This document shows positions 36,012 through 46,665 of a DNA stretch of 46,756 bases, one piece after another. This DNA comes from Bdellovibrio sp. CG22_combo_CG10-13_8_21_14_all_39_27. GTDB lineage: Bacteria > Bdellovibrionota > Bacteriovoracia > Bacteriovoracales > Bacteriovoracaceae. The notes under the pieces were generated by a model that worked only from the letters and a program-made list of their open reading frames with translations, was not told where the DNA came from and searched no databases. A program made the position numbers and the translations under genes. The stretch covers positions 16,658 through 63,413 of the forward strand of contig PCTW01000032.1 of assembly GCA_002786715.1 (NCBI GenBank), written 5' to 3'. How positions within the stretch are numbered: position 1 is the stretch's first letter; every line of letters starts with the position of its first letter.

Positions 36012-37355
36012 TTACAAATGGGAATCTTCTTGAAATCGCGAGCTTTTACTCCATATGATCGCCAAGTAGCCAAAGATCAAGTAATACATTCGATCGCCCA
36101 GTCCCCCTAAGGAAAGGTGGACGTGATAAATCACAAAAACGGGTAAATGGGAAAGTAGAAAAAGTCCTAACATTTGCCGGTTAGGATCCTTTTGTACGAG
36201 CGCCTTGATGGTTCCCATGATCATCATAAAATAGCCGATAATGGATAAGAGGAGCAGTGGCCAACCTCCAATAACACCAGCTGAAATGAAGAGATTATGA
36301 GGGTCCTTAAATGAGTTATAACCTTCCATTTCGACGCCTTCACCACCCATGAATTTATAAAGAATTCCTTGACCAAAATATTCACTTTTTTTGAACATTT
36401 TTATTCCACGTGTGACTTCTTCCATACGGGATTCAATGCCATCTTGAGCAGGTCGCATACCAAAACTTTTATGTCCAGTGGCCACATCGTAGATGAATTC
36501 ACCAGTAGGCACTCCAAAGAGTAAAACGGCCGTTGTAAAAATCGAGATAAAGCAAAATTTGAACAGACGAACTGTTTTTTTCTTAGAACCATAAATGAGT
36601 GTCGCCACAAAAAAGACTAAAAGAATTGTGATTACTGCTGCTTTAGTGGCCGTGAGTAAAACGGCAATGGTAATAAGAAAAAGAATGAAGGGAAAAAGAA
36701 ATTTATTTTTTCTTTCGTGATAGGGACCGATACGGAAAACACTCGGTATAAAAAAGATAAACGCAAAAGTGGCAGCCGATACCATATGAGGAATATGCTT
36801 AAACACCCCAATGAATCTACCACCTCTAAAAAAATGGGGAAAAAAGATAGGTAAGAGTAATAGGCTGAGCAAAACCAGAATGACGCTGGTTCGACGAACG
36901 ATAAAGATAAATCGCTCTAACGGCATCATGGTCGGAATCATAATGCCGTACATGGTGAGCAGCACCAGAGCATTTAATAAACCGCCAAGTTGCATCCAAG
37001 GTGAGTAGGAAACGTTAACGAGTGCAATTTGGAAAAGTGTCTGAAGAGTTAAAACGACCATTAAGGTGTACATATAAAAGAGATAAAGCGGACTTAGTTT
37101 GACGAGTTTTTTAGTGCGAACCCATATGAAGAAGAGAATCGCAAAAATTCCAAAGTTGAGAGCGAAATTGATATAGGGGCTGAGGCCGTGTTGATAAACA
37201 ACAAAGGATAAGCGAAAGGGTACGATACGAGTCCATTTGAGTGATATTTTTGAAACAAACATCAATACTAAAAGAAAGACACAAATAGCATCAGTGATTT
37301 TACCTACTGATAACTTTGCATCGGCAATGGGATTGAGAGGCTTTGCTTGCTCCAT
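36012..37355 (-). CDS. O-antigen ligase/polymerase (WaaL/Wzy-like) membrane protein
   Basis: A 447-residue protein with about 11 membrane helices. The hallmark is DPHNLFISAGVIGGWPLLLL near residue 350 after a large periplasmic loop (GQGILYKFMGGEGVEM), the PHN motif of the Wzy_C/O-antigen ligase family. It joins or polymerises surface polysaccharide at the outer face of the inner membrane. It follows the SLBB gene by three bases; both are read leftward from the promoter near 37926, opposite to the Wzz-like gene. Confidence 0.8.
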   Translation of the reverse strand: MEQAKPLNPIADAKLSVGKITDAICVFLLVLMFVSKISLKWTRIVPFRLSFVVYQHGLSPYINFALNFGIFAILFFIWVRTKKLVKLSPLYLFYMYTLMVVLTLQTLFQIALVNVSYSPWMQLGGLLNALVLLTMYGIMIPTMMPLERFIFIVRRTSVILVLLSLLLLPIFFPHFFRGGRFIGVFKHIPHMVSAATFAFIFFIPSVFRIGPYHERKNKFLFPFILFLITIAVLLTATKAAVITILLVFFVATLIYGSKKKTVRLFKFCFISIFTTAVLLFGVPTGEFIYDVATGHKSFGMRPAQDGIESRMEEVTRGIKMFKKSEYFGQGILYKFMGGEGVEMEGYNSFKDPHNLFISAGVIGGWPLLLLSIIGYFMMIMGTIKALVQKDPNRQMLGLFLLSHLPVFVIYHVHLSLGGLGDRMYYLIFGYLAIIWSKSSRFQEDSHL

Positions 37356-37358
37356 TAA

Positions 37359-37886
37359 TTAATTTTTTCTACGATCTTCAATTGCAAGCACCGTGAGTGC
37401 TGAGGTTAAGATAACGGAGATGACTGTGACCAAACGAAAAGTATCATTACTGATAAGGCTCGTTCGTGGCTTAACCAAAACAATGTCATTGGTTTGAAGT
37501 GCGTAATCATTTTTAGGGTTGTTCTCTAAAGTTTTTTCCAAGTCGAGAACCAAGCTTTCTTGTTTTTTTCCTGTCTCATTATCTTTTACACCGTGCAAAT
37601 CATTTCCAATAAGAACTTCATTGAGGTTGGCATTATTGGTAGTCCCACCTGCAAGACTCAACAATGTGATGAGCTTCAAATTTTTTGGAACGTGATAGAG
37701 ACCAGCTCTTTGAACTTCACCAAGCAAGCGAATAGAGATCAGTTCTTCGTCGCGATTTGACTGAAAAATAAATTCAGAAGGTTGAGACAATTTGTATTGG
37801 CGGGCCTTGATGTCGGAGATTTCAAAGGCGTAACTACTACTGATTAAGAGTGAGTAACAAAGTATGGCACTGATTAAGCGTTTCAT
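37359..37886 (-). CDS. SLBB-domain polysaccharide export-related protein
   Basis: A 175-residue protein: signal peptide (ISAILCYSLLISSSYA), one SLBB domain (ISIRLLGEVQRAGLYHVPKNLKLITLLSLAGGTTNNA, about residues 50-90), a linker with NDIVLVKPR, and a C-terminal membrane helix (RLVTVISVILTSALTVLAI). It lacks the polysaccharide export (Wza) domain itself, so it is a partial relative that may assist a separate exporter. First gene of a leftward pair with the O-antigen ligase. Confidence 0.75.
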   Translation of the reverse strand: MKRLISAILCYSLLISSSYAFEISDIKARQYKLSQPSEFIFQSNRDEELISIRLLGEVQRAGLYHVPKNLKLITLLSLAGGTTNNANLNEVLIGNDLHGVKDNETGKKQESLVLDLEKTLENNPKNDYALQTNDIVLVKPRTSLISNDTFRLVTVISVILTSALTVLAIEDRRKN

Positions 37887-37925
37887 TCTAGCTCCAAGTC
37901 ATTGATAATTCGTAAAGACGCTTCT

Positions 37926-37953
37926 ATTATACTGAGACAATCAAGCTTATGAA
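37926..37953 (-). promoter_or_regulatory. Promoter for the SLBB/O-antigen ligase pair
   Basis: On the minus strand, a perfect TATAAT (37931-37926) is preceded after 16 bp by TTCATA (37953-37948, four of six). Transcription would start near 37919, about 33 bases before the ATG at 37886. The -10 is strong, the -35 weak. Confidence 0.45.
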
Positions 37954-38033
37954 AGAAGATAACTGATGATTATTTAAGAAGTTCTGAGGGCTTACCGAAG
38001 AGACTTTATTCAATTTAAAGACGGAGTGATGTT

Positions 38034-39335
38034 TTGGAAACTTTTAACCATGGTTATAAATCACCTGATTTAAAACCCCCCGAGCCCCAAGAAGAAGTTA
38101 CCATGCTCGAGGTCGTTACTGTTTTCTTAGGCCGCTGGAAATATTTAGTAACTTTGGCCTTGGTCTTTGTTTTGATTGCACTCGTTAAGCATAAGTATTA
38201 TCCGATTTATCCTTCGACAGGTAAGCTCATCATCAAAGATCAAAGTGACGGTCAGATACAATCATTTCTTAAAAACATCCCGAGCAGCTTTGGTGGATTG
38301 TCGATTCAAAATTCAAGTGACCAAGTCAATAAAGCGATCATTTTTCTGGAGACTAATGATTTTTTTATGTCATTGGCACAAAGAGTCCTCGATATCGTTC
38401 AAATGGACCAGTTAGATGCGCCTGACAATATGGCCTTTCAAGCTTTACTTGCGCAAATCAAAACTCCAAAAGACGATCCTGAGTACCTTCAAATACTGGC
38501 GTCAAAACTAGATACAATGATATCTTTTTCTCCCTCAAAAACAGGTCAGATCATTTTCAAAGTGAAATCGAGCAATAAATCGATTTCCGTTTATTTGGTT
38601 AATGCCGCTCTCGATCAAGCCAAAGAAGTTTTGATTGCCCATGAAATGAATGAGCTTAATCGTGCTGAAACTTACTTCCAATCAGAAGTTGAAAAAGTCA
38701 AAAAACGTTTAGATGAGCTAGAAGGGGAAACCGTTTTTAAGTTAAGAGAGAAAGATACTATTTCAGTAGATGCAAAGACGGACGAAACTTCTCGTTATTT
38801 AAATGAACTTCGTAAAAATATTAATGATAACAAAATTAAAATCAGCGAGAATAATTTGCTCCTAAAGTCTCTAAGAAAAAAACTTAAAAAAGGTCAACAT
38901 GCGGAGACAAACGCGCTCAGTAAGTTTGATTTAAGTAATAAAATATTAATGATCGAAGATGAAAATAAGGCCTATCGTATACGCTTAAAAACTTACGAGA
39001 GTTATTTAAAGAAAAACTCTGGGCAAAGTCAAAAACTTGTTCCTTTTCAAAATGAGATTGAAAAAATTAAAAATAATTATCTCTTTGAATCAAAAGTATA
39101 CGAGAATCTCAGGGATTCTCTGGCCAGGATTGGTCTGCAAAAAACTTTTGTCTTGTACAGCGTCGAGATTTTGGAACAAGAGCGCATGAGTAGAGTTAAA
39201 TCGGAACCAGGTTTAATCATGATGATTTTGATAGCAATAATGCTGTCTCAAATCATTGGGTTTGGAGCGATTTACTTAATCGAACTCTTTAAACCTCTTC
39301 GAAAAACCAAAGATCCTCTCTATTTCAGAGTCTAA
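38034..39335 (+). CDS. Wzz/chain-length-determinant family protein
   Basis: A 433-residue inner membrane protein with a helix at each end (about 35-55 and 397-418), and a long periplasmic coiled-coil region (residues 195-360, rich in KxLDELE and NKIKISENN type heptads). This is the Wzz/PCP layout that controls the length of surface polysaccharide. No cytoplasmic tyrosine kinase domain follows. TTG 38034 with GGAG seven bases upstream is the likely start; no in-frame ATG precedes the first helix. It diverges from the SLBB and O-antigen ligase genes and ends with a four-base overlap with the convergent ferredoxin-like gene. Confidence 0.8.
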   Translation: METFNHGYKSPDLKPPEPQEEVTMLEVVTVFLGRWKYLVTLALVFVLIALVKHKYYPIYPSTGKLIIKDQSDGQIQSFLKNIPSSFGGLSIQNSSDQVNKAIIFLETNDFFMSLAQRVLDIVQMDQLDAPDNMAFQALLAQIKTPKDDPEYLQILASKLDTMISFSPSKTGQIIFKVKSSNKSISVYLVNAALDQAKEVLIAHEMNELNRAETYFQSEVEKVKKRLDELEGETVFKLREKDTISVDAKTDETSRYLNELRKNINDNKIKISENNLLLKSLRKKLKKGQHAETNALSKFDLSNKILMIEDENKAYRIRLKTYESYLKKNSGQSQKLVPFQNEIEKIKNNYLFESKVYENLRDSLARIGLQKTFVLYSVEILEQERMSRVKSEPGLIMMILIAIMLSQIIGFGAIYLIELFKPLRKTKDPLYFRV

Positions 39336-39637
39336 TCATTCATAAGCTTCTCGAGAACTTCTTGAACTCTGAAATCATCTTGAGGCGATAGCCCTAAGAG
39401 CCATTTGTTTTGCGGATAAATGGCGCAACTGATGCCATGTTCGCATTGACCAAGGCAACCAGAGGAGTTGACTCGTATTTGCGATTTTCCAAATTTTTCG
39501 ATGGCCCATTTTTTTATTCGATTTCGCAGGTCAGCAGTTTGTTCAGGATCGGTATATGTGCCATCAGTCTTCTTGTGCTGACAAGAAGTACAGATAAAGG
39601 CATGAACTTTGTAATCGGTTTTAGTTGAGCTATCCAT
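39332..39637 (-). CDS. Thioredoxin-like [2Fe-2S] ferredoxin
   Basis: A 101-residue protein with the four cysteines of the TRX-fold (Aquifex-type) ferredoxin family: FICTSCQHKK in the first half and SSGCLGQCEHGISC in the second, then AIYPQNKWLLGLSPQDD, the usual end. It carries one [2Fe-2S] cluster and passes electrons in the cytoplasm. Partner unknown. It ends in a four-base overlap (CTAA) with the Wzz-like gene. Confidence 0.85.
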   Translation of the reverse strand: MDSSTKTDYKVHAFICTSCQHKKTDGTYTDPEQTADLRNRIKKWAIEKFGKSQIRVNSSGCLGQCEHGISCAIYPQNKWLLGLSPQDDFRVQEVLEKLMND

Positions 39638-39761: not shown

Positions 39762-41174
39762 ATGACCATTCAAAAATCACTTGATCCCATTCAAAAGGCC
39801 CTTGAAATCAATCTCAACGCCCAAATCTATGGAACTTTTGCGGAAATTGGCGCAGGACAGGAAGTGGCCAGAGCTTTTTTTAGGGCCGGTGGCGCAGCAG
39901 GTACCGTGGCCAAGACCATGTCGGCCTATGATATGACTTTTTCTGATTCAATTTACGGCAAGTCTTCTCGCTATGTTTCTGATGATCGCTTGGTAACAAT
40001 GCTTAAATATGAGATGGACCTCTTGGTTGAAAGACTTGGACCTAAGAGAGGAAGTGATACTCGCTTTTTCTGTTTTGCAGATACTGTGGCCGCTAAGAGC
40101 TTTAAGGGGGGAGGCGATTGTCACGGTTGGCTGGGAATGCGTTTTCAGCATGAAATCAATGCTCCAAGCTCGCAAGTTATCGTGCATATTCGCATGTTGG
40201 ATAAAATCAATCTTCAGCAACAAGAAGCTCTTGGCATCGTGGGCGTGAATTTGATTTATGCTTGTAGTTACCTTAGTGACGATCGTGAGAAATTTATTGT
40301 TTCTTTGATGGATCACTTAGGACCAGATCGAATTGAAATTGATATGATTACGGTCAATGGGCCGGCATTTAAAAATGTTGATTCACGACTTTGGAGTTTG
40401 GAGCTGGTTAAACATGACTTCACCCAAGCTGTTTTATTCAACGAAAAGGGCGACGTTATCAATGCTAAAGATGCCCTCTATAAAAAACATATTCTCACAT
40501 GCAGAGGCTCTTATCGACCACCAACATTAGTTAATATTGATATGCTTGAACGTGGGAAACAAACCATGATGAAGGATCTCAAATGTAAGAATGATGAACT
40601 GTGGGTATTGCCAGAAATCTCGATGAACAAATTGAGAGAAAGAGGTGGAGAAGTCGATAACGAAGATTTCTTGGCAAGAGTAGATCTTCTCAAAGAAATT
40701 AATTATTCCGTTTTGATTTCTAATTATCGTAACTATTCAGAGTTGTCTCAGTTCTTGGCCCAAAACTCAAAGATGAACATTGGCTTCGTCTTTGGCTATT
40801 ATAACCTGATCGAAATATTTGATGAGTCTCGCTATGATGAACATCCCGCTGGCATTCTTGGTGGGGTAGGAGAGCTGATTGGTCAACGAGGTCGTTTTTA
40901 CTGTTATCCAGGTCACGATGAAAAAACTCAATCGACTCTCAGTTTAAAAGATGCTCCTGTGGCAAAGGAAGTCCGCCCTCTCATTGATTATTTGATTGCA
41001 CGCAATCGCCTTAGTGATATTACGGAATATAATCAAAATGTTTTTCACATTTGGTCTCGCACCGTATTGAAAATGATTCAAAATGGAGAGTCGGGCTGGG
41101 AAGAGATGGTCCCAAAGGGTTTGGCAAAACTAGTCAAAGAAAAATGCCTCTTTGGGTATCCTTGCAAGGTGTAA
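39762..41174 (+). CDS. Conserved soluble protein of unknown function (GTFAEIGAGQEVAR family)
   Basis: A 470-residue cytoplasmic protein without signal or membrane segments. Conserved blocks are YGTFAEIGAGQEVARAFFRAGGAAGTVAKTMSAYDM-like at residues 25-60, RFFCFADTVAAKSF, CHGWLGMRFQ and ALGIVGVNLIYA. I recall this as a widespread family found in several phyla and carrying unreliable names such as nicotinate-nucleotide adenylyltransferase or TonB-related protein; no function is established to my knowledge. A strong Shine-Dalgarno (GGAGGG) precedes ATG 39762. The stop is four bases before the ATG of an RnfD-like gene, and that gene overlaps a DUF2330 gene, so the three make one operon. Confidence 0.7.
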   Translation: MTIQKSLDPIQKALEINLNAQIYGTFAEIGAGQEVARAFFRAGGAAGTVAKTMSAYDMTFSDSIYGKSSRYVSDDRLVTMLKYEMDLLVERLGPKRGSDTRFFCFADTVAAKSFKGGGDCHGWLGMRFQHEINAPSSQVIVHIRMLDKINLQQQEALGIVGVNLIYACSYLSDDREKFIVSLMDHLGPDRIEIDMITVNGPAFKNVDSRLWSLELVKHDFTQAVLFNEKGDVINAKDALYKKHILTCRGSYRPPTLVNIDMLERGKQTMMKDLKCKNDELWVLPEISMNKLRERGGEVDNEDFLARVDLLKEINYSVLISNYRNYSELSQFLAQNSKMNIGFVFGYYNLIEIFDESRYDEHPAGILGGVGELIGQRGRFYCYPGHDEKTQSTLSLKDAPVAKEVRPLIDYLIARNRLSDITEYNQNVFHIWSRTVLKMIQNGESGWEEMVPKGLAKLVKEKCLFGYPCKV

Positions 41175-41178
41175 TTTG

Positions 41179-41970
41179 ATGAAGCTCACTATAAGAGAGG
41201 GACAAATTGCATTGCAGTCCTTGTTGATAATGATTCTCATTTCACTTTTTTCTGTGATAATTCCAATTCATAGAATTGTATTCATTATTTCAAGTTGTTT
41301 GCTAACGCAGTTTTTCTTTGATTTAAAATTTTCAAGAAAGTTTAATTACAAAAGTTCATTTATTACCAGTATGTCGCTTCTCCTCTTAATTAAGACTCCT
41401 CATTATTCTTTTGATGTCATCGCCTCAGTCTTGGCGATTAGTAGTAAGTTTTTGATTCGAATGGACCGCAAGCACATTTTCAATCCTGCTAATTTTGCGA
41501 TTGTGATGCTTATGCTATTTGGTTGGGCTTGGGTCACTCCCATGCAATGGGGACAGGATATTTGGGTATTACTCATAGTGACTTTGTTTGGAACTTGGCT
41601 TTGTTACAAGGCCCAGAGGCTCGATGTTCCTTTGGTATTTCTTTTTGTCACATGGGCATTGCTTTTTCATCGTCACGTTCTCTTTTTAGGGGATCCTCTT
41701 CCCATTTTCTTTCACCGATTGTCGGTAGTCTCTCTTTATGTCTTTGCCTTTTTAATGATCTCGGATCCAAAGACCACTCCTCATCGCCTCGGAGCAAGGA
41801 TGATGTGGGTCTCTATGATTGCGATTATGAGTTTTGTTATTGAGAATCATTATTTCGTACGTCATGGAACTTTGTATGTTCTTTTTGCCTTTGCCTTTTT
41901 TAATGGACTCTTAAATAAAACTTTGCCTGGAAAGGAATTTGTATGGAAAGACTCAGCCGCCTCTTACTAA
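41179..41970 (+). CDS. RnfD/NqrB-like integral membrane protein
   Basis: A 263-residue membrane protein of about eight helices. HIFNPANFAIVML and FLMISDPKTTPHRLGARM are the conserved blocks of an RnfD-related family. I do not see the S/DGATxxT flavinylation motif of true RnfD/NqrB, and no RnfABCEG or ApbE gene is nearby, so it is an orphan relative with a different job. The frame extends nine codons upstream to 41152, but ATG 41179 starts with MKLTIREGQ and sits four bases after the preceding stop. It overlaps the DUF2330 gene by 28 bases. Confidence 0.75.
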   Translation: MKLTIREGQIALQSLLIMILISLFSVIIPIHRIVFIISSCLLTQFFFDLKFSRKFNYKSSFITSMSLLLLIKTPHYSFDVIASVLAISSKFLIRMDRKHIFNPANFAIVMLMLFGWAWVTPMQWGQDIWVLLIVTLFGTWLCYKAQRLDVPLVFLFVTWALLFHRHVLFLGDPLPIFFHRLSVVSLYVFAFLMISDPKTTPHRLGARMMWVSMIAIMSFVIENHYFVRHGTLYVLFAFAFFNGLLNKTLPGKEFVWKDSAASY

Positions 41971-43319
41971 TCGTTTTTTTATTGCCGACCTATGGCCACG
42001 CTTTTTGTGGTTATTATGTTTCTAAAGCTGATACCAAGCTTTTTAATAAAGCTTCAAAGGTGATTTTGGTACGCGATGGCGATCGCACTGTTCTTACCAT
42101 GGCGAACGATTTTAAAGGTGATGTCAAAGAATTTGCCATGATTGTCCCCGTTCCCACTGTTCTCGAAAAAGAGCAAATTAATGTCGCAGAGAATGCCATC
42201 GTTGATCGAGTTGATGCCTTTACAGCTCCTCGATTGGTGGAATACTACGACGAAGATCCCTGTGCCATGAGAATGTATGAAAAGACATTAGCGATGAGTG
42301 CAAGTGGTGGCGCGCCCATGAAAAAGGGCAGAGGGGCCGAAAAAGATCTTGGGGTAACGGTTGAAGCTCAATATACCGTGGGCGAGTATGATATTTTAAT
42401 TTTGTCTGCCAAAGAAAGTTCGGGTCTTTTAACTTGGTTAAAAGAGAATGAATATAAAATCGCTGATTCAGCTGTGAAAACACTTGAAAGTTATATTAAG
42501 CAAGATTTGAAGTTCTTTGTCGCAAAAGTAAATCTTAAAGAGCTCGCTAAAAGTGGGAATGAATTCTTGCGCCCACTGCAAATGGCCTATGAATCTACAA
42601 AATTCATGCTTCCAATTAGATTGGGAACTCTCAATGCCGATGGTGATCAAGAACTCTTTGTTTTTGCAGTGACTAAAAAAGGAAGAGTTGAGACTGTGAA
42701 CTATCGCACAGTCTCAATCCCATCAGAGTTAGAACTTCCTCTTTTAATAAAAGACGATAAACAGTTTAAGAAATTTTACCAAGACATGTTTGCAACCGCC
42801 CATCGTCGCGAAGATGCCAAAGCTGTTTTTCTTGAATACGCTTGGAACATGAGCTGGTGCGATCCTTGTGCTGCAGAACCTTTAACGCCTGAGGAATTAA
42901 AAAAAATTGGTGTTTTTTGGATGAATGAGAGTGAACGTCCTGGTGTCTCTCCCATGAATAAAATTCTGCCTAGATCTCCACGTCCAAATGCTCCAGTTGA
43001 AGCTTATATTTCTCGCTTACATGTTCGTTATAATGCTCAAACATTTCCTGAAGATTTGCGTTTTCAAGTAACGAGTAATCAAGAAAATTTTCAAGGGCGG
43101 TATATCTTGAGACATCCTTTTACAGGAAAAATTACTTGTGACGCAGGCAAGGAGTACCAAAAACAGTTAGTTGATCGGTCCGAAAAGGAAATTGCGAATT
43201 TGCTGCATGTCACTGGATGGAAAAGGAGCGATTTACCTGCTGATCTTGCTTCTGAAGTACCGGTGACAGATGACAAAGATCAGAAAAAGAAAAAATGGTG
43301 GCAAAAACTTTGGGATTGA
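41943..43319 (+). CDS. Exported DUF2330 protein
   Basis: A 458-residue protein with signal peptide (LLLIVFLLPTYGHA). After cleavage it begins FCGYYVSKADTKLFNKASKVILVRDGDRTVLTMANDFKGDVKEFAMIVPVP-like, which is the DUF2330 signature. Cysteines are few: Cys22, one in DEDPCAM, CDPC in NMSWCDPCAAEP (a CxxC motif around residue 305) and one near the C-terminus (ITCDAGKE). It is probably periplasmic or outer-membrane facing with a redox or metal site. It starts inside the RnfD-like gene (28-base overlap). The C-terminus is lysine-rich. Confidence 0.8.
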   Translation: MERLSRLLLIVFLLPTYGHAFCGYYVSKADTKLFNKASKVILVRDGDRTVLTMANDFKGDVKEFAMIVPVPTVLEKEQINVAENAIVDRVDAFTAPRLVEYYDEDPCAMRMYEKTLAMSASGGAPMKKGRGAEKDLGVTVEAQYTVGEYDILILSAKESSGLLTWLKENEYKIADSAVKTLESYIKQDLKFFVAKVNLKELAKSGNEFLRPLQMAYESTKFMLPIRLGTLNADGDQELFVFAVTKKGRVETVNYRTVSIPSELELPLLIKDDKQFKKFYQDMFATAHRREDAKAVFLEYAWNMSWCDPCAAEPLTPEELKKIGVFWMNESERPGVSPMNKILPRSPRPNAPVEAYISRLHVRYNAQTFPEDLRFQVTSNQENFQGRYILRHPFTGKITCDAGKEYQKQLVDRSEKEIANLLHVTGWKRSDLPADLASEVPVTDDKDQKKKKWWQKLWD

Positions 43320-43389: not shown

Positions 43390-43797
43390 ATGAGTAAGCC
43401 TTTAGTAGATGATGCCATAATCGTTGATGATGATAAGGAAGTCATTGAAGTTCTTAAAATGTATTGTGAGAACTTGGGTTGTTTCCGTTATATCATCACT
43501 GCAAAAGATGGAATCGAAGCTTCCATGAAATTATCCAATCAAAAGTTTGCATTGATTCTATTAGATATCAATATGCCTAAGAAAACTGGTGTAGATATCT
43601 TGAAGGAACTTGATAAGAATTCAAATAATTCTGTAGATTCAATTGTTATCGTTTCAGGCGAACTTAATAAAAATGTTATATCTACTGCTATGTCAAAGGG
43701 CGTAAAAAATTATCTCGTAAAACCCTTTGATGAGGATGCTTTTCAAACAAAAATCCGCCAAGTTCTGGCCAAAGTTCGACCCGGCTTACTTCCGTAA
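43390..43797 (+). CDS. Single-domain CheY-like response regulator
   Basis: A 135-residue receiver domain with nothing after it. The acidic pair is IIVDDDKE (residues 10-17), the phosphoacceptor Asp59 is in LILLDINMP, the Ser/Thr position is VIVSGELN, and the lysine is in YLVKPFDE. It has no DNA-binding or enzymatic output, so it acts by protein contact as CheY does. No kinase lies beside it; the broken MASE1-CHASE kinase is 22 kb away. It precedes the ClpB-like gene but that gene has its own promoter. Confidence 0.9.
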   Translation: MSKPLVDDAIIVDDDKEVIEVLKMYCENLGCFRYIITAKDGIEASMKLSNQKFALILLDINMPKKTGVDILKELDKNSNNSVDSIVIVSGELNKNVISTAMSKGVKNYLVKPFDEDAFQTKIRQVLAKVRPGLLP

Positions 43798-43820
43798 TTT
43801 CCTGATTTTCGGTCAAAAAC

Positions 43821-43848
43821 CTTGACGTTTATTTAGTTGCTCCCAACT
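43821..43848 (+). promoter_or_regulatory. Heat-shock (sigma32)-like promoter for the ClpB-family gene
   Basis: CTTGAC (43821-43826) and TCCCAACT (43841-43848) are spaced 14 bp apart, matching the sigma32 pattern CTTGAA-N13-15-CCCCATNT at most positions. The sigma70 reading of the same site (TTGACG) finds no good -10. It lies 38 bp before ATG 43887, which has a strong AAGGAG site. This fits heat-induced expression of a disaggregase. Confidence 0.5.
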
Positions 43849-43886
43849 TAATTAGGAGAGAGTTCTTTAATTTAAAAGGAGTTTAT

Positions 43887-46250
43887 ATGAATAAATTTAA
43901 TCAAGTGGTTCTAGGGGCCCTCGATATAGCTCAAACTGAAGCAGTAGAGCGCAAAAATGCAGAACTTTGCCCAGAACATGTTATGTGGGGCTTAGTTGCT
44001 AACCCTCAATCACACTCTTCGAAAGTTTTAAAAAAATATCAAAAAGAATTAAAAGCTTTATTAGATAAATTGCCGACGACATCCAGTCGAGTCAACGTAA
44101 GTGAGTTGAAAGCATCGGGCAAGTTTCAAGATTGGATAACACAAGCTTCATCTCATGCTATTCAAGCAGGACGACAAGAAGTTGCGGAGCAAGACCTTCT
44201 TCGTTTTTTACCGAAAATTCTTCCCGATTGGAAAATTAATTATGAGGAATTAAATTCTTCGGAAGAGGAAACGGAAGTTCCTTCCTATCTTACAAATTTA
44301 AATGAATTAGCAGAGAAAGGAAAACTTGATCCAGTGATTGGACGTACTAAAGAAATACGCGCGGTGATGGAAATTCTTGGACGTCGCGGAAAAAATAATC
44401 CAGTTCTCGTAGGCCCCGCCGGTGTTGGTAAAACCGCCATCGTTGAAGGTCTTGCGGATGCCATCGTCAAGGGCAATGTACCAGATGTTCTCCAAGGCAA
44501 AACAGTCTTTGCCCTTGATATGGGATCCCTTATGGCCGGAACGAAATACCGAGGTGAATTTGAAGAGCGACTGCAAACGCTAATTAAATTCATCAAGGAC
44601 AAAGCAGGAGAGGCGATTCTCTTTATTGATGAGATCCATCAATTGGTCGGTGCAGGTCGTACTGATGGTGCTATGGATGCTGCCAATCTTTTGAAACCAG
44701 CGTTGGCACGAGGTGAGCTCAATTGCATTGGGGCAACGACACCAGCGGAATATCAAAAATATATTCTTGGGGATTCTGCTCTCGATAGACGTTTTCGCTC
44801 GGTCCCTGTTAACGAGCCAAGTAAAGAAGATGCCATTGAAATTATCATGGGTATTAGAGATAAACTGGAAGCTCACCATGGTATAAAAATCTCTGATGAA
44901 GCGATTTATTCATCGGTTTTACTGTCTACACAATATATTACCGATAAAAATCTTCCTGATAAGGCCATCGACTTAGTTGATGAAGCTGCCTCTGCTCTAA
45001 AATTATCAGCGGAGGCCATGCCTGCAAAAGTTGCTGAGCTCGAAGCTGAAATACGTTCGAAAAAAGTTTTATCTCAAGTCGAACCCGACAATCAGACTAT
45101 AAAGTCAGAGATCACAAAACTTGAAGCTCGATTCGTTGAAGAGAAAGAAAAGTGGGAAAAAGAAGTTTTATCGATGAAGCGTGTCTCTGAGATTAAGGGA
45201 CAACTCGATAGAACAAAATTTGAAATGGAACAAGCTGAGAGAACAGGGGATTGGGAATTGGCCGGTCGACTCAAATATTCGATCATTCCAGAACTTGAAA
45301 AGCAATTGGGCCAAACAGGACATGACTGGAATCTCAAACCTAGAGATATTGCCAATGTTATTGCCAGACAAACAGGGATTCCTGTAGAGAAGATTTTAAA
45401 ATCGAAGCAAGATAATATTCTTGATCTTGAAAATTATCTTACTCATAGGGTCTATGGCCAAACTCAGGCCCTGCATGAAATTTCAGAGACTTTAATGACC
45501 TCCCATGCAGGTTTAAAAGACGAGACTCGTCCGCTTGGTTCTTTCTTACTTAGAGGTCCATCAGGTGTAGGAAAAACTGAAACTGCCAAGAGCCTAGCTG
45601 AATTTTTATTTAACTCAGAAAATGCAATGATTCGTTTGGACATGTCTGAATTTTCTGAAAAGCATTCTGTCTCAAAGCTTATCGGATCTCCAGCTGGTTA
45701 TGTTGGTTATGAAGAAGGAGGCGTTTTAACTGAAGCTGTGAGAAGACGGCCCTACGCCGTGATTCTCTTTGATGAAATCGAAAAGGCCCATCGTGACTTT
45801 TCAGATATTCTTTTACAGATTTTAGATGATGGACGCTTAACAGATAATAAGGGGCGAACAATTGATTTTAAAAATACCATTATTATTTTAACCACCAACT
45901 CAAAAAATCCTGAACAGGATTTTAAACCAGAAGTTCTGGGGCGTTTGGATGCTATCCTCGACTACAATGCCCTTGATCCGGTAGTGATGAAATCCCTCAT
46001 TGATAAGCAAGTTAAGCTTTTAAATGAGAGATTGGCCGTGAAAAAAATGGAAGTGGTTCTCGATGAGGAAACTTATTCTATGTTAAGTGAGCAAGGCTAT
46101 GACCCTCGCTATGGCGCCAGACCTTTGAGCAATGCCTTTAACAAGTTTGTGATTAGACCTCTCTCGAAAAAACTTTTGGAGGATCAAGCGCATGAAGGTA
46201 AGTTTAAATTGAGCTGGAATACCGAAGCTAAAGAGATGGTTATTCAGTAA
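43887..46250 (+). CDS. clpB: ClpB-family AAA+ disaggregase (shortened)
   Basis: A 787-residue protein with a Clp N domain (1-130), first AAA+ module with Walker A GPAGVGKT (176-183), a coiled-coil middle domain (about 374-475, including [24 protein letters not shown], which is diagnostic of ClpB), and a second AAA+ with GPSGVGKT (557-564) and C-terminal [14 protein letters not shown] see no IGF/IGL loop for docking to ClpP, so it should refold aggregates with DnaK rather than feed a protease. It is about 70 residues shorter than usual ClpB (about 857), mainly in the N domain and the C-terminal module. ClpA is the alternative but has no such middle domain. A heat-shock-like promoter precedes it. 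Confidence 0.88.
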
Positions 46251-46264
46251 AAATTATTCATTTT

Positions 46265-46305
46265 CCCTGATGTCATGCTTGCATGGCATCGGGGCTCATG
46301 GCATC
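46265..46305 (+). other. Strong intercistronic hairpin with a duplicated 3' arm
   Basis: A 13-bp stem pairs 46265-46277 (CCCTGATGTCATG) with 46282-46294 (CATGGCATCGGGG), two G-T pairs included, around the loop CTTG. The arm CATGGCATC is repeated at 46297-46305, so GATGTCATG (46269-46277) could pair with either copy. There is no T run, so it is not a standard terminator. It sits between the clpB stop (46250) and the next gene's ATG (46315). Confidence 0.55.
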
Positions 46306-46314
46306 CTATTCTAT

Positions 46315-46665
46315 ATGACTGATACTAATTTAAAATTGAAACCAGAAGAATATCTAGTCCGTGAAGGCGAAGAGAGCAACGAGATGTTCTATCTTCAGAA
46401 TGGAACACTTGCTGTTTTTAAACGCAAGGGTAATGGTGAGCAACAAATCGGGACCATTTATTCTGGTGAGCTTGTTGGTGAAATGAGTTTTTTCGATAAT
46501 AAGCCTCGTTCGGCTTCTGTTAAAGCAATATCAGATTGTGAACTCGTTTGTATACCAAGGGCCAAAATGGATTCACTCCATCGTCAACTTCCGCCTTGGT
46601 TTAAGGCTTTAGTCAACACTCTCTTAGATCGGCTTCGCCGAGCGAATACACGCGTTCGTATCTAG
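46315..46665 (+). CDS. Cyclic-nucleotide-binding-domain protein
   Basis: A 116-residue single cNMP-binding domain of the CRP fold with no DNA-binding helix-turn-helix: EYLVREGEESNEMFYLQNGTL, then the phosphate cassette GELVGEMSFFDNKPRSASVKA, which follows the FGExALLxxxPRxATV pattern, including the conserved Glu and Arg, so it can probably bind a cyclic nucleotide. ATG 46315 is preferred to an ATG at 46270 that would lie inside the hairpin. It probably regulates a partner protein. It follows clpB by 64 bases. Nothing more is seen in the last 91 bases of the window. Confidence 0.8.
   Translation: MTDTNLKLKPEEYLVREGEESNEMFYLQNGTLAVFKRKGNGEQQIGTIYSGELVGEMSFFDNKPRSASVKAISDCELVCIPRAKMDSLHRQLPPWFKALVNTLLDRLRRANTRVRI

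Follow-up and report, generated by a model that had tools for sequence, protein, structure and literature searches.

Do the three tightly packed genes at positions 39,762 to 43,319 of this stretch of Bdellovibrio sp. DNA (46,756 nucleotides of contig PCTW01000032.1, hereafter the window) make up one system acting across the inner membrane, or are they neighbours with separate histories? An earlier note had read them as an undescribed three-gene system, consisting of a conserved soluble protein (gene 1), an orphan RnfD-like membrane protein (gene 2) and an exported DUF2330 protein (gene 3). The coordinates it gave are confirmed, as are the gap of four bases between the stop of gene 1 and the ATG of gene 2 and the 28-base overlap of gene 3 with the end of gene 2 (Table 1). 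The association of gene 2 with DUF2330 stands, whereas gene 1 is found in many genomes that lack genes 2 and 3, and these two are likewise widespread in its absence.

To survey the family, a DUF2330 alignment was scanned against 84,980 species genomes, yielding at least 562 relatives, of which the best 80 loci were inspected. Judging from the record titles, these loci belong to Alpha- and Gammaproteobacteria, Acidobacteria, Nitrospira, Dadabacteria, Rokubacteria, Cyanobacteria, Verrucomicrobia and Bdellovibrionota. In 78 of the 80 loci, DUF2330 has an RnfD-like gene directly beside it in the same orientation or joined to it within a single open reading frame (ORF), usually in the order RnfD-like then DUF2330, with the order reversed in L094 and L104. 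Both proteins are encoded in a single open frame in five loci (L107, L108, L170, L171, and L172), of which the L171 fusion is 718 amino acids long, and the signal-peptide-like segment of DUF2330 is kept as a link in these fused ORFs. This layout fits a predicted topology in which the RnfD part has its C-terminus in the cytoplasm and the DUF2330 part lies outside, and internal initiation at the DUF2330 start may also take place. One further locus (L194:2615-8064, genome G520) has one RnfD-like gene followed by three tandem DUF2330 genes.

The pairing was also examined in fixed samples totalling 583 genomes from three clades, in which PF10092 and the RnfD-like alignment A4 were searched separately. 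Among 199 Acidobacteriota, nine genomes have strong DUF2330 matches and the identical nine have strong RnfD-like matches, all adjacent and three of them in a single ORF. Likewise, 11 of 144 Bdellovibrionota encode DUF2330 and 10 a strong RnfD-like protein; the two are adjacent in the 10 genomes that have both, including one (G033) in which the RnfD-like gene is cut by a contig end, and the exception (G091) has a divergent DUF2330 without a strong RnfD-like gene. The Alphaproteobacteria (n = 240) contribute nine strong DUF2330 and four RnfD-like genes, the latter all adjacent to DUF2330 (4/4). Hence every one of the 23 strong RnfD-like genes has DUF2330 as its neighbour, and 23 of the 29 genomes with strong DUF2330 have an RnfD-like gene; of the six in which DUF2330 stands alone, five are Alphaproteobacteria. 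Such pairing greatly exceeds what chance would give (Fisher p = 1e-14, 9e-16, and 9e-7 in the three clades), and pairwise distances within the two families are correlated (r = 0.70), with none of 1000 permutations reaching as high a value. The dependence is one-sided, in that DUF2330 occurs without the RnfD-like gene in some Alphaproteobacteria, and in these samples strong RnfD-like genes occur only with DUF2330. We conclude that the two genes almost certainly constitute a functional unit. The earlier note had suggested co-occurrence across genomes as a check; by that measure the three-family system fails and the two-gene module emerges very strongly.

RnfD and NqrB are components of six-subunit respiratory pumps with two flavins. 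The gene 2 protein as a single sequence matched no Pfam or NCBIfam model; PF03116 (NQR2_RnfD_RnfE) does not match it alone and matches nine of 10 members of its alignment. When the gene 2 family was compared with 14 canonical RnfD/NqrB proteins in hhalign, the two aligned over about 250 columns (probability 98.7, E 1.5e-16), and a profile match to the PDB RnfD entry 8ahx_D was obtained with E 2e-16. By these profile comparisons, the gene 2 protein is a true RnfD/NqrB homologue minus one block. That block appears as the one large gap in the hhalign alignment and is the periplasmic five-helix linker holding the threonine that accepts flavin mononucleotide (FMN), a residue invariant in 14/14 canonical proteins. 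The spacing between the Asn of the N-P motif and the Asp of the D-P motif is 93-99 residues in the gene 2 family, compared with 131-155 in canonical proteins. The absence of an FMN attachment motif claimed for this protein was borne out: with the linker deleted, no FMN-type motif was found in gene 2, nor in any of the 51 family sequences, out of 52, that the scan could place.

The riboflavin site appears to have been retained despite this loss. Asn102 and Asp196 are invariant in all 52 members of a family that has only 13 invariant positions. Their counterparts on the cytoplasmic side of RnfD bind riboflavin (N123/D249 in A. woodii and N124/D248 in C. tetanomorphum; PMC11889175, PMC9588780), and the Asn and the Asp are each required for Rnf activity in A. 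woodii (PMC11889175). The description of gene 2 as an orphan also holds, since no RnfA/B/C/E/G genes are apparent beside it and the genome's own NqrB is encoded on a separate contig (C33). No Rnf/NQR gene recurs among the neighbours here or at the 80 loci, and no FMN-binding domain or ApbE was recognised among the recurring neighbours of those loci, for which sequences were read and no per-neighbour profile search was made.

The A4 profile additionally finds a second class of proteins, scoring 94-172 bits versus 250-390 for complete DUF2330-linked copies. The members examined have the same linker deletion and an invariant Asn and Asp (20/20), and over both classes the riboflavin-contact pair is kept in 72/72 proteins. 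In the regions inspected, this sister class mostly adjoins FG-GAP proteins, which were UnbV_ASPIC proteins wherever they were scanned. Many of its matches in Bdellovibrionota sit in open frames of about 920-965 amino acids, of which one, that of contig C77 in the window's genome, was scanned and is an RnfD-UnbV fusion. The window's genome has one adjacent pair, in which a second linker-less RnfD directly follows FG-GAP/CRTAC1-like proteins (L072:4851-5666, C46), and one fusion, a 921-residue protein joining a linker-less RnfD to an FG-GAP/UnbV_ASPIC propeller (L073:6853-9615, C77). A 496-residue protein without a Pfam match is encoded directly upstream of this fusion. Two regions depart from the UnbV association: the L165 member lies beside an ApbE-like gene (read from the sequence), and in L166 no UnbV gene was seen. 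Because the sister class pairs or fuses with UnbV/FG-GAP proteins instead of DUF2330, it seems that a single type of membrane unit can work with more than one kind of exported protein.

In enediyne clusters, UnbV and UnbU precede a type I polyketide synthase. A UnbV_ASPIC gene, a linker-less RnfD gene and a type I polyketide synthase (ketosynthase, acyltransferase) occur in a row in one Acidobacteriota genome (L164:1435-7999, G326), which makes an enediyne-type pathway possible in this phylum. No paper linking RnfD with CRTAC1 or enediynes was found in the open literature, most subscription journals being outside the search. It is conceivable, although we regard it as doubtful, that linker-less RnfD proteins make up a class of minimal transmembrane flavin modules that is large and has gone unrecognised, each member having the riboflavin site only, one dedicated exported partner (DUF2330 or UnbV), no other Rnf/NQR subunits and no covalent flavin; UnbU-UnbV of enediyne clusters would then be one branch and the DUF2330 pair another.

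The gene 3 protein matches PF10092 with 260.6 bits (cut-off 24.7). A signal peptide and a mature N-terminal F-C-G are common to members of the family, as are five invariant cysteines (22, 107, 306, 309, and 399). The exported character and the CxxC motif ascribed to this protein are both upheld, the CxxC as an invariant C-D-P-C. The C-terminal tail follows the pattern W-[WY]-x-x-hydrophobic-W in 78/80 proteins, with a shortened W-W-x-W in the other two. This WWxxLW tail was considered as a dock for the RnfD-like protein and found unsupported, because DUF2330 proteins without an RnfD-like neighbour also have it; in the lone alphaproteobacterial copies that were inspected, the mature N-terminus and the tail are both unchanged. 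No paper on DUF2330 or its pairing with RnfD was found in the same literature search.

We propose that the products of genes 2 and 3 work together as a module of the cell envelope. The RnfD-like protein has dispensed with the periplasmic linker and its covalent FMN and keeps the cytoplasm-facing riboflavin pocket (Asn102, Asp196), and the exported DUF2330 protein probably docks on its periplasmic side, where RnfG/NqrC and the linker would otherwise sit. DUF2330, with its five invariant cysteines including those of C-D-P-C, would serve as the dedicated periplasmic partner. The most likely mode of action would be one-electron transmembrane traffic via a non-covalent flavin, and the simplest reading would be a minimal one-electron conduit or redox sensor with DUF2330 as its periplasmic end. 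The data establish that the two genes co-occur, in which order they lie and that they can be fused, that gene 2 is homologous to RnfD/NqrB and has lost the linker, and that the two residues are invariant; that a flavin is bound, that the proteins dock, and that electrons pass, which way and to what substrate, is inferred. The pairing is very secure and the mechanism is not: we hold the module as a whole, with its docking and its flavin-based electron traffic, only tentatively, and a redox mechanism for the pair has in our estimate somewhat less than an even chance. If one mechanism has to be chosen, transfer of electrons via riboflavin to DUF2330 would be the best. Retention of the Asn/Asp pair that binds riboflavin in RnfD lends some support to the earlier note's idea that electrons could move across the membrane, an idea that is still unproven.

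Several points weigh against this proposal. The flavin in the RnfD-like protein is inferred rather than directly evidenced, and the Asn-Pro and Asp-Pro motifs could have been kept for structural reasons. With the periplasmic FMN lost, nothing known would relay electrons from the riboflavin site onward to the periplasm; genes for an electron donor are not encoded near the pair; and no likeness of DUF2330 to a redox protein was found in sequence or fold comparisons. Furthermore, five Alphaproteobacteria have a strong DUF2330 and no RnfD-like gene of this class, and therefore DUF2330 can work without the RnfD-like protein. A non-redox role is nearly as likely, since no donor, outer-half relay or substrate is known and the motifs may be structural. 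The RnfD-like protein would in that case be a transporter or scaffold with an ammonium/urea-transporter-type fold, which either moves a small solute or anchors or matures DUF2330, as the sister class would do for UnbV. A structural kinship of RnfD/NqrB with transporters of ammonium and urea is indeed described (PMC9588780, PMC12174285), part of the flavin relay is missing, and the use of the same membrane unit with unrelated exported proteins would fit a generic anchor or maturation factor. However, the exact retention of the riboflavin-contact residues in both classes, despite loss of the FMN linker, counts against a non-redox role. DUF2330 also carries a signal peptide of its own and is employed in some species that lack the RnfD-like protein, so it does not always need an anchor of this kind.

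A different alternative arises from the predicted structure of DUF2330 (predicted local distance difference test (pLDDT) score 81.3), for which the sole significant fold matches are baculovirus P35 in the PDB (Foldseek E 1e-4, probability 1.00) and P35/P49-like proteins in a viral library (E 1.4e-4, probability 0.99). DUF2330 could accordingly be imagined as a P35-fold periplasmic protease inhibitor or pseudosubstrate, for which the RnfD-like protein would be a membrane platform or sensor. In P35, inhibition depends on a reactive-site loop that is cleaved and on the amino terminus, and gingipain-K, a bacterial protease, is among its targets (PMC3375223). The mature N-terminus of DUF2330 is conserved, and residues 109-135 form a variable loop modelled with low confidence, but this loop has no conserved cleavage site, the template modelling (TM) scores are 0.23-0.38 with a root-mean-square deviation above 10 A, and sequence searches for P35 or any solved structure gave nothing at E = 10. 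The modelled likeness to P35 is weak, a lead rather than a finding, and we consider the inhibitor role improbable.

The remaining alternative, that the soluble gene 1 protein is a cytoplasmic component of the pair, draws on the tight packing in the window and on the folds of its predicted model (AlphaFold pLDDT 89.5), which Foldseek relates to nicotinate-nucleotide adenylyltransferases and the CinA/PncC deamidase domain (TM-score by target about 0.65), both enzymes of nicotinamide adenine dinucleotide (NAD) metabolism. The same three-gene order is seen only in the window, in its family relatives G128, G033 and G020 and at loci L075, L076 and L077, some of which may be the same genomes; all its occurrences are thus in Bdellovibrionota of the Bacteriovoracales type. 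However, gene 1 is present in 69/144 Bdellovibrionota genomes, of which only three have DUF2330 (odds ratio 0.38, p = 0.21), and outside the phylum it occurs in one of 12 module-bearing genomes, on a contig other than that of the module. The three-gene system was rejected because these co-occurrence counts show gene 1 to be unassociated with DUF2330; it is already largely refuted, and we regard it as very unlikely. Gene 1 is a local neighbour, independent of the two-gene module.

Gene 1 as an active NadD or PncC enzyme was likewise rejected. The position of the NadD HxGH motif reads T-L-V-N (255-258), with Thr255 invariant in 25 members and HxGH present in no member shown. The catalytic serine of CinA/PncC lies in an AES motif. 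Gene 1 reads A-E-I-G-A-G-Q at 27-33 in place of AESxTGG, and no YxNxxK, the motif of the CinA/PncC nicotinamide mononucleotide deamidase (PMC3855486), is found near K51. With HxGH and the PncC motifs missing, gene 1 is unlikely to run either reaction. As a single sequence it matched no Pfam or NCBIfam model, and its family, well conserved and common in Bdellovibrionota, is without a Pfam model.

Table 1. Positions in the window of the three genes and of the sequence features discussed in the text.
Feature	Positions	Strand	Remarks
Gene 1	39762..41174	+	470 aa; neighbour, outside the conserved module
Gene 2, linker-less RnfD/NqrB-like membrane protein	41179..41970	+	263 aa from ATG 41179
Codon of Asn102 (F-N-P motif)	41482..41484	+	aligns with riboflavin-binding Asn of RnfD
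Linker deletion point, residues 118-125 (W-V-T-P-M-Q-W-G)	41530..41553	+	hhalign gap; Asn-Asp spacing
Codon of Asp196 (S-D-P motif)	41764..41766	+	aligns with riboflavin-binding Asp of RnfD
Gene 3, exported DUF2330 protein	41943..43319	+	458 aa; PF10092
Predicted signal peptide of DUF2330 (A20 / F21); mature N-terminus F-C-G-Y-Y-V	41943..42002	+	sequence and conservation; site by eye, -3/-1 rule
C306-D-P-C309 motif of DUF2330	42858..42869	+	invariant in 54/54
C-terminal tail W-W-Q-K-L-W of DUF2330	43296..43313	+	conserved in 78/80

Gene 2 has an alternative in-frame TTG start at 41152. A scan of the locus for promoters and terminators gave a result near the shuffled expectation, and no operon boundary was therefore drawn. 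Upstream, a small DUF1636 protein with several cysteines is encoded on the minus strand (39332-39637), adjoining the cluster and separating it from an apparent exopolysaccharide locus (36012-39335). Downstream of DUF2330 (43390-46665) lie genes for a single-domain response regulator, a ClpA-like ATPase and a cyclic-nucleotide-binding-like protein, and the same kinds of gene are again found near DUF2330 in G128 and G020. No third gene accompanies the pair throughout: neighbours such as uvrC, pgsA, sensor kinases or response regulators (names read from the sequences) vary by lineage.

The pair derives from the membrane subunit RnfD/NqrB and consists of two genes. Since one of the two flavin sites is deleted while the other seems intact, and since it has an obligate exported partner and a distribution over several phyla, it offers a minimal test system for the riboflavin site alone. 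The pairing is also a first functional handle on DUF2330, and it may help to explain what the similar RnfD-UnbV pairs do, among them those in pathways of the enediyne type.

Comparison with known systems places the module in context. Gene 1 shares predicted domain folds with NadD and CinA/PncC and not their catalytic motifs. The Foldseek match of DUF2330 to the baculovirus P35/P49 caspase inhibitors was obtained in two libraries with TM-scores < 0.4; those proteins are viral caspase inhibitors, whereas DUF2330 is bacterial and periplasmic, with no sequence similarity detected, and a relationship is unproven. Gene 2 is homologous to RnfD/NqrB of the Rnf and Na+-NQR complexes (PF03116), including the Asn and Asp that bind riboflavin, set in the N-P and D-P motifs, and its family differs in having neither the five-helix FMN-Thr linker nor neighbouring Rnf/NQR subunits, with DUF2330 as exported partner. 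The UnbU-like RnfD proteins that accompany UnbV_ASPIC/FG-GAP proteins share with the DUF2330 pair the linker deletion, the Asn/Asp residues, the layout of membrane and exported proteins and the occurrence of fusions; their exported partner is a beta-propeller/UnbV protein instead of DUF2330, and they form a separate A4 score class. In the NQR/RNF-like flavinylated extracytosolic clusters the membrane domain is fused to an NAD domain of the NqrF type, and FMN-binding domains and ApbE are present as well (PMC8238504); none of these was seen beside the RnfD-like/DUF2330 pair. In those clusters an NqrB/RnfD-type membrane domain links the cytosol to the outside (PMC8238504), and a membrane domain of this type would also be the link in the RnfD-like/DUF2330 pair.

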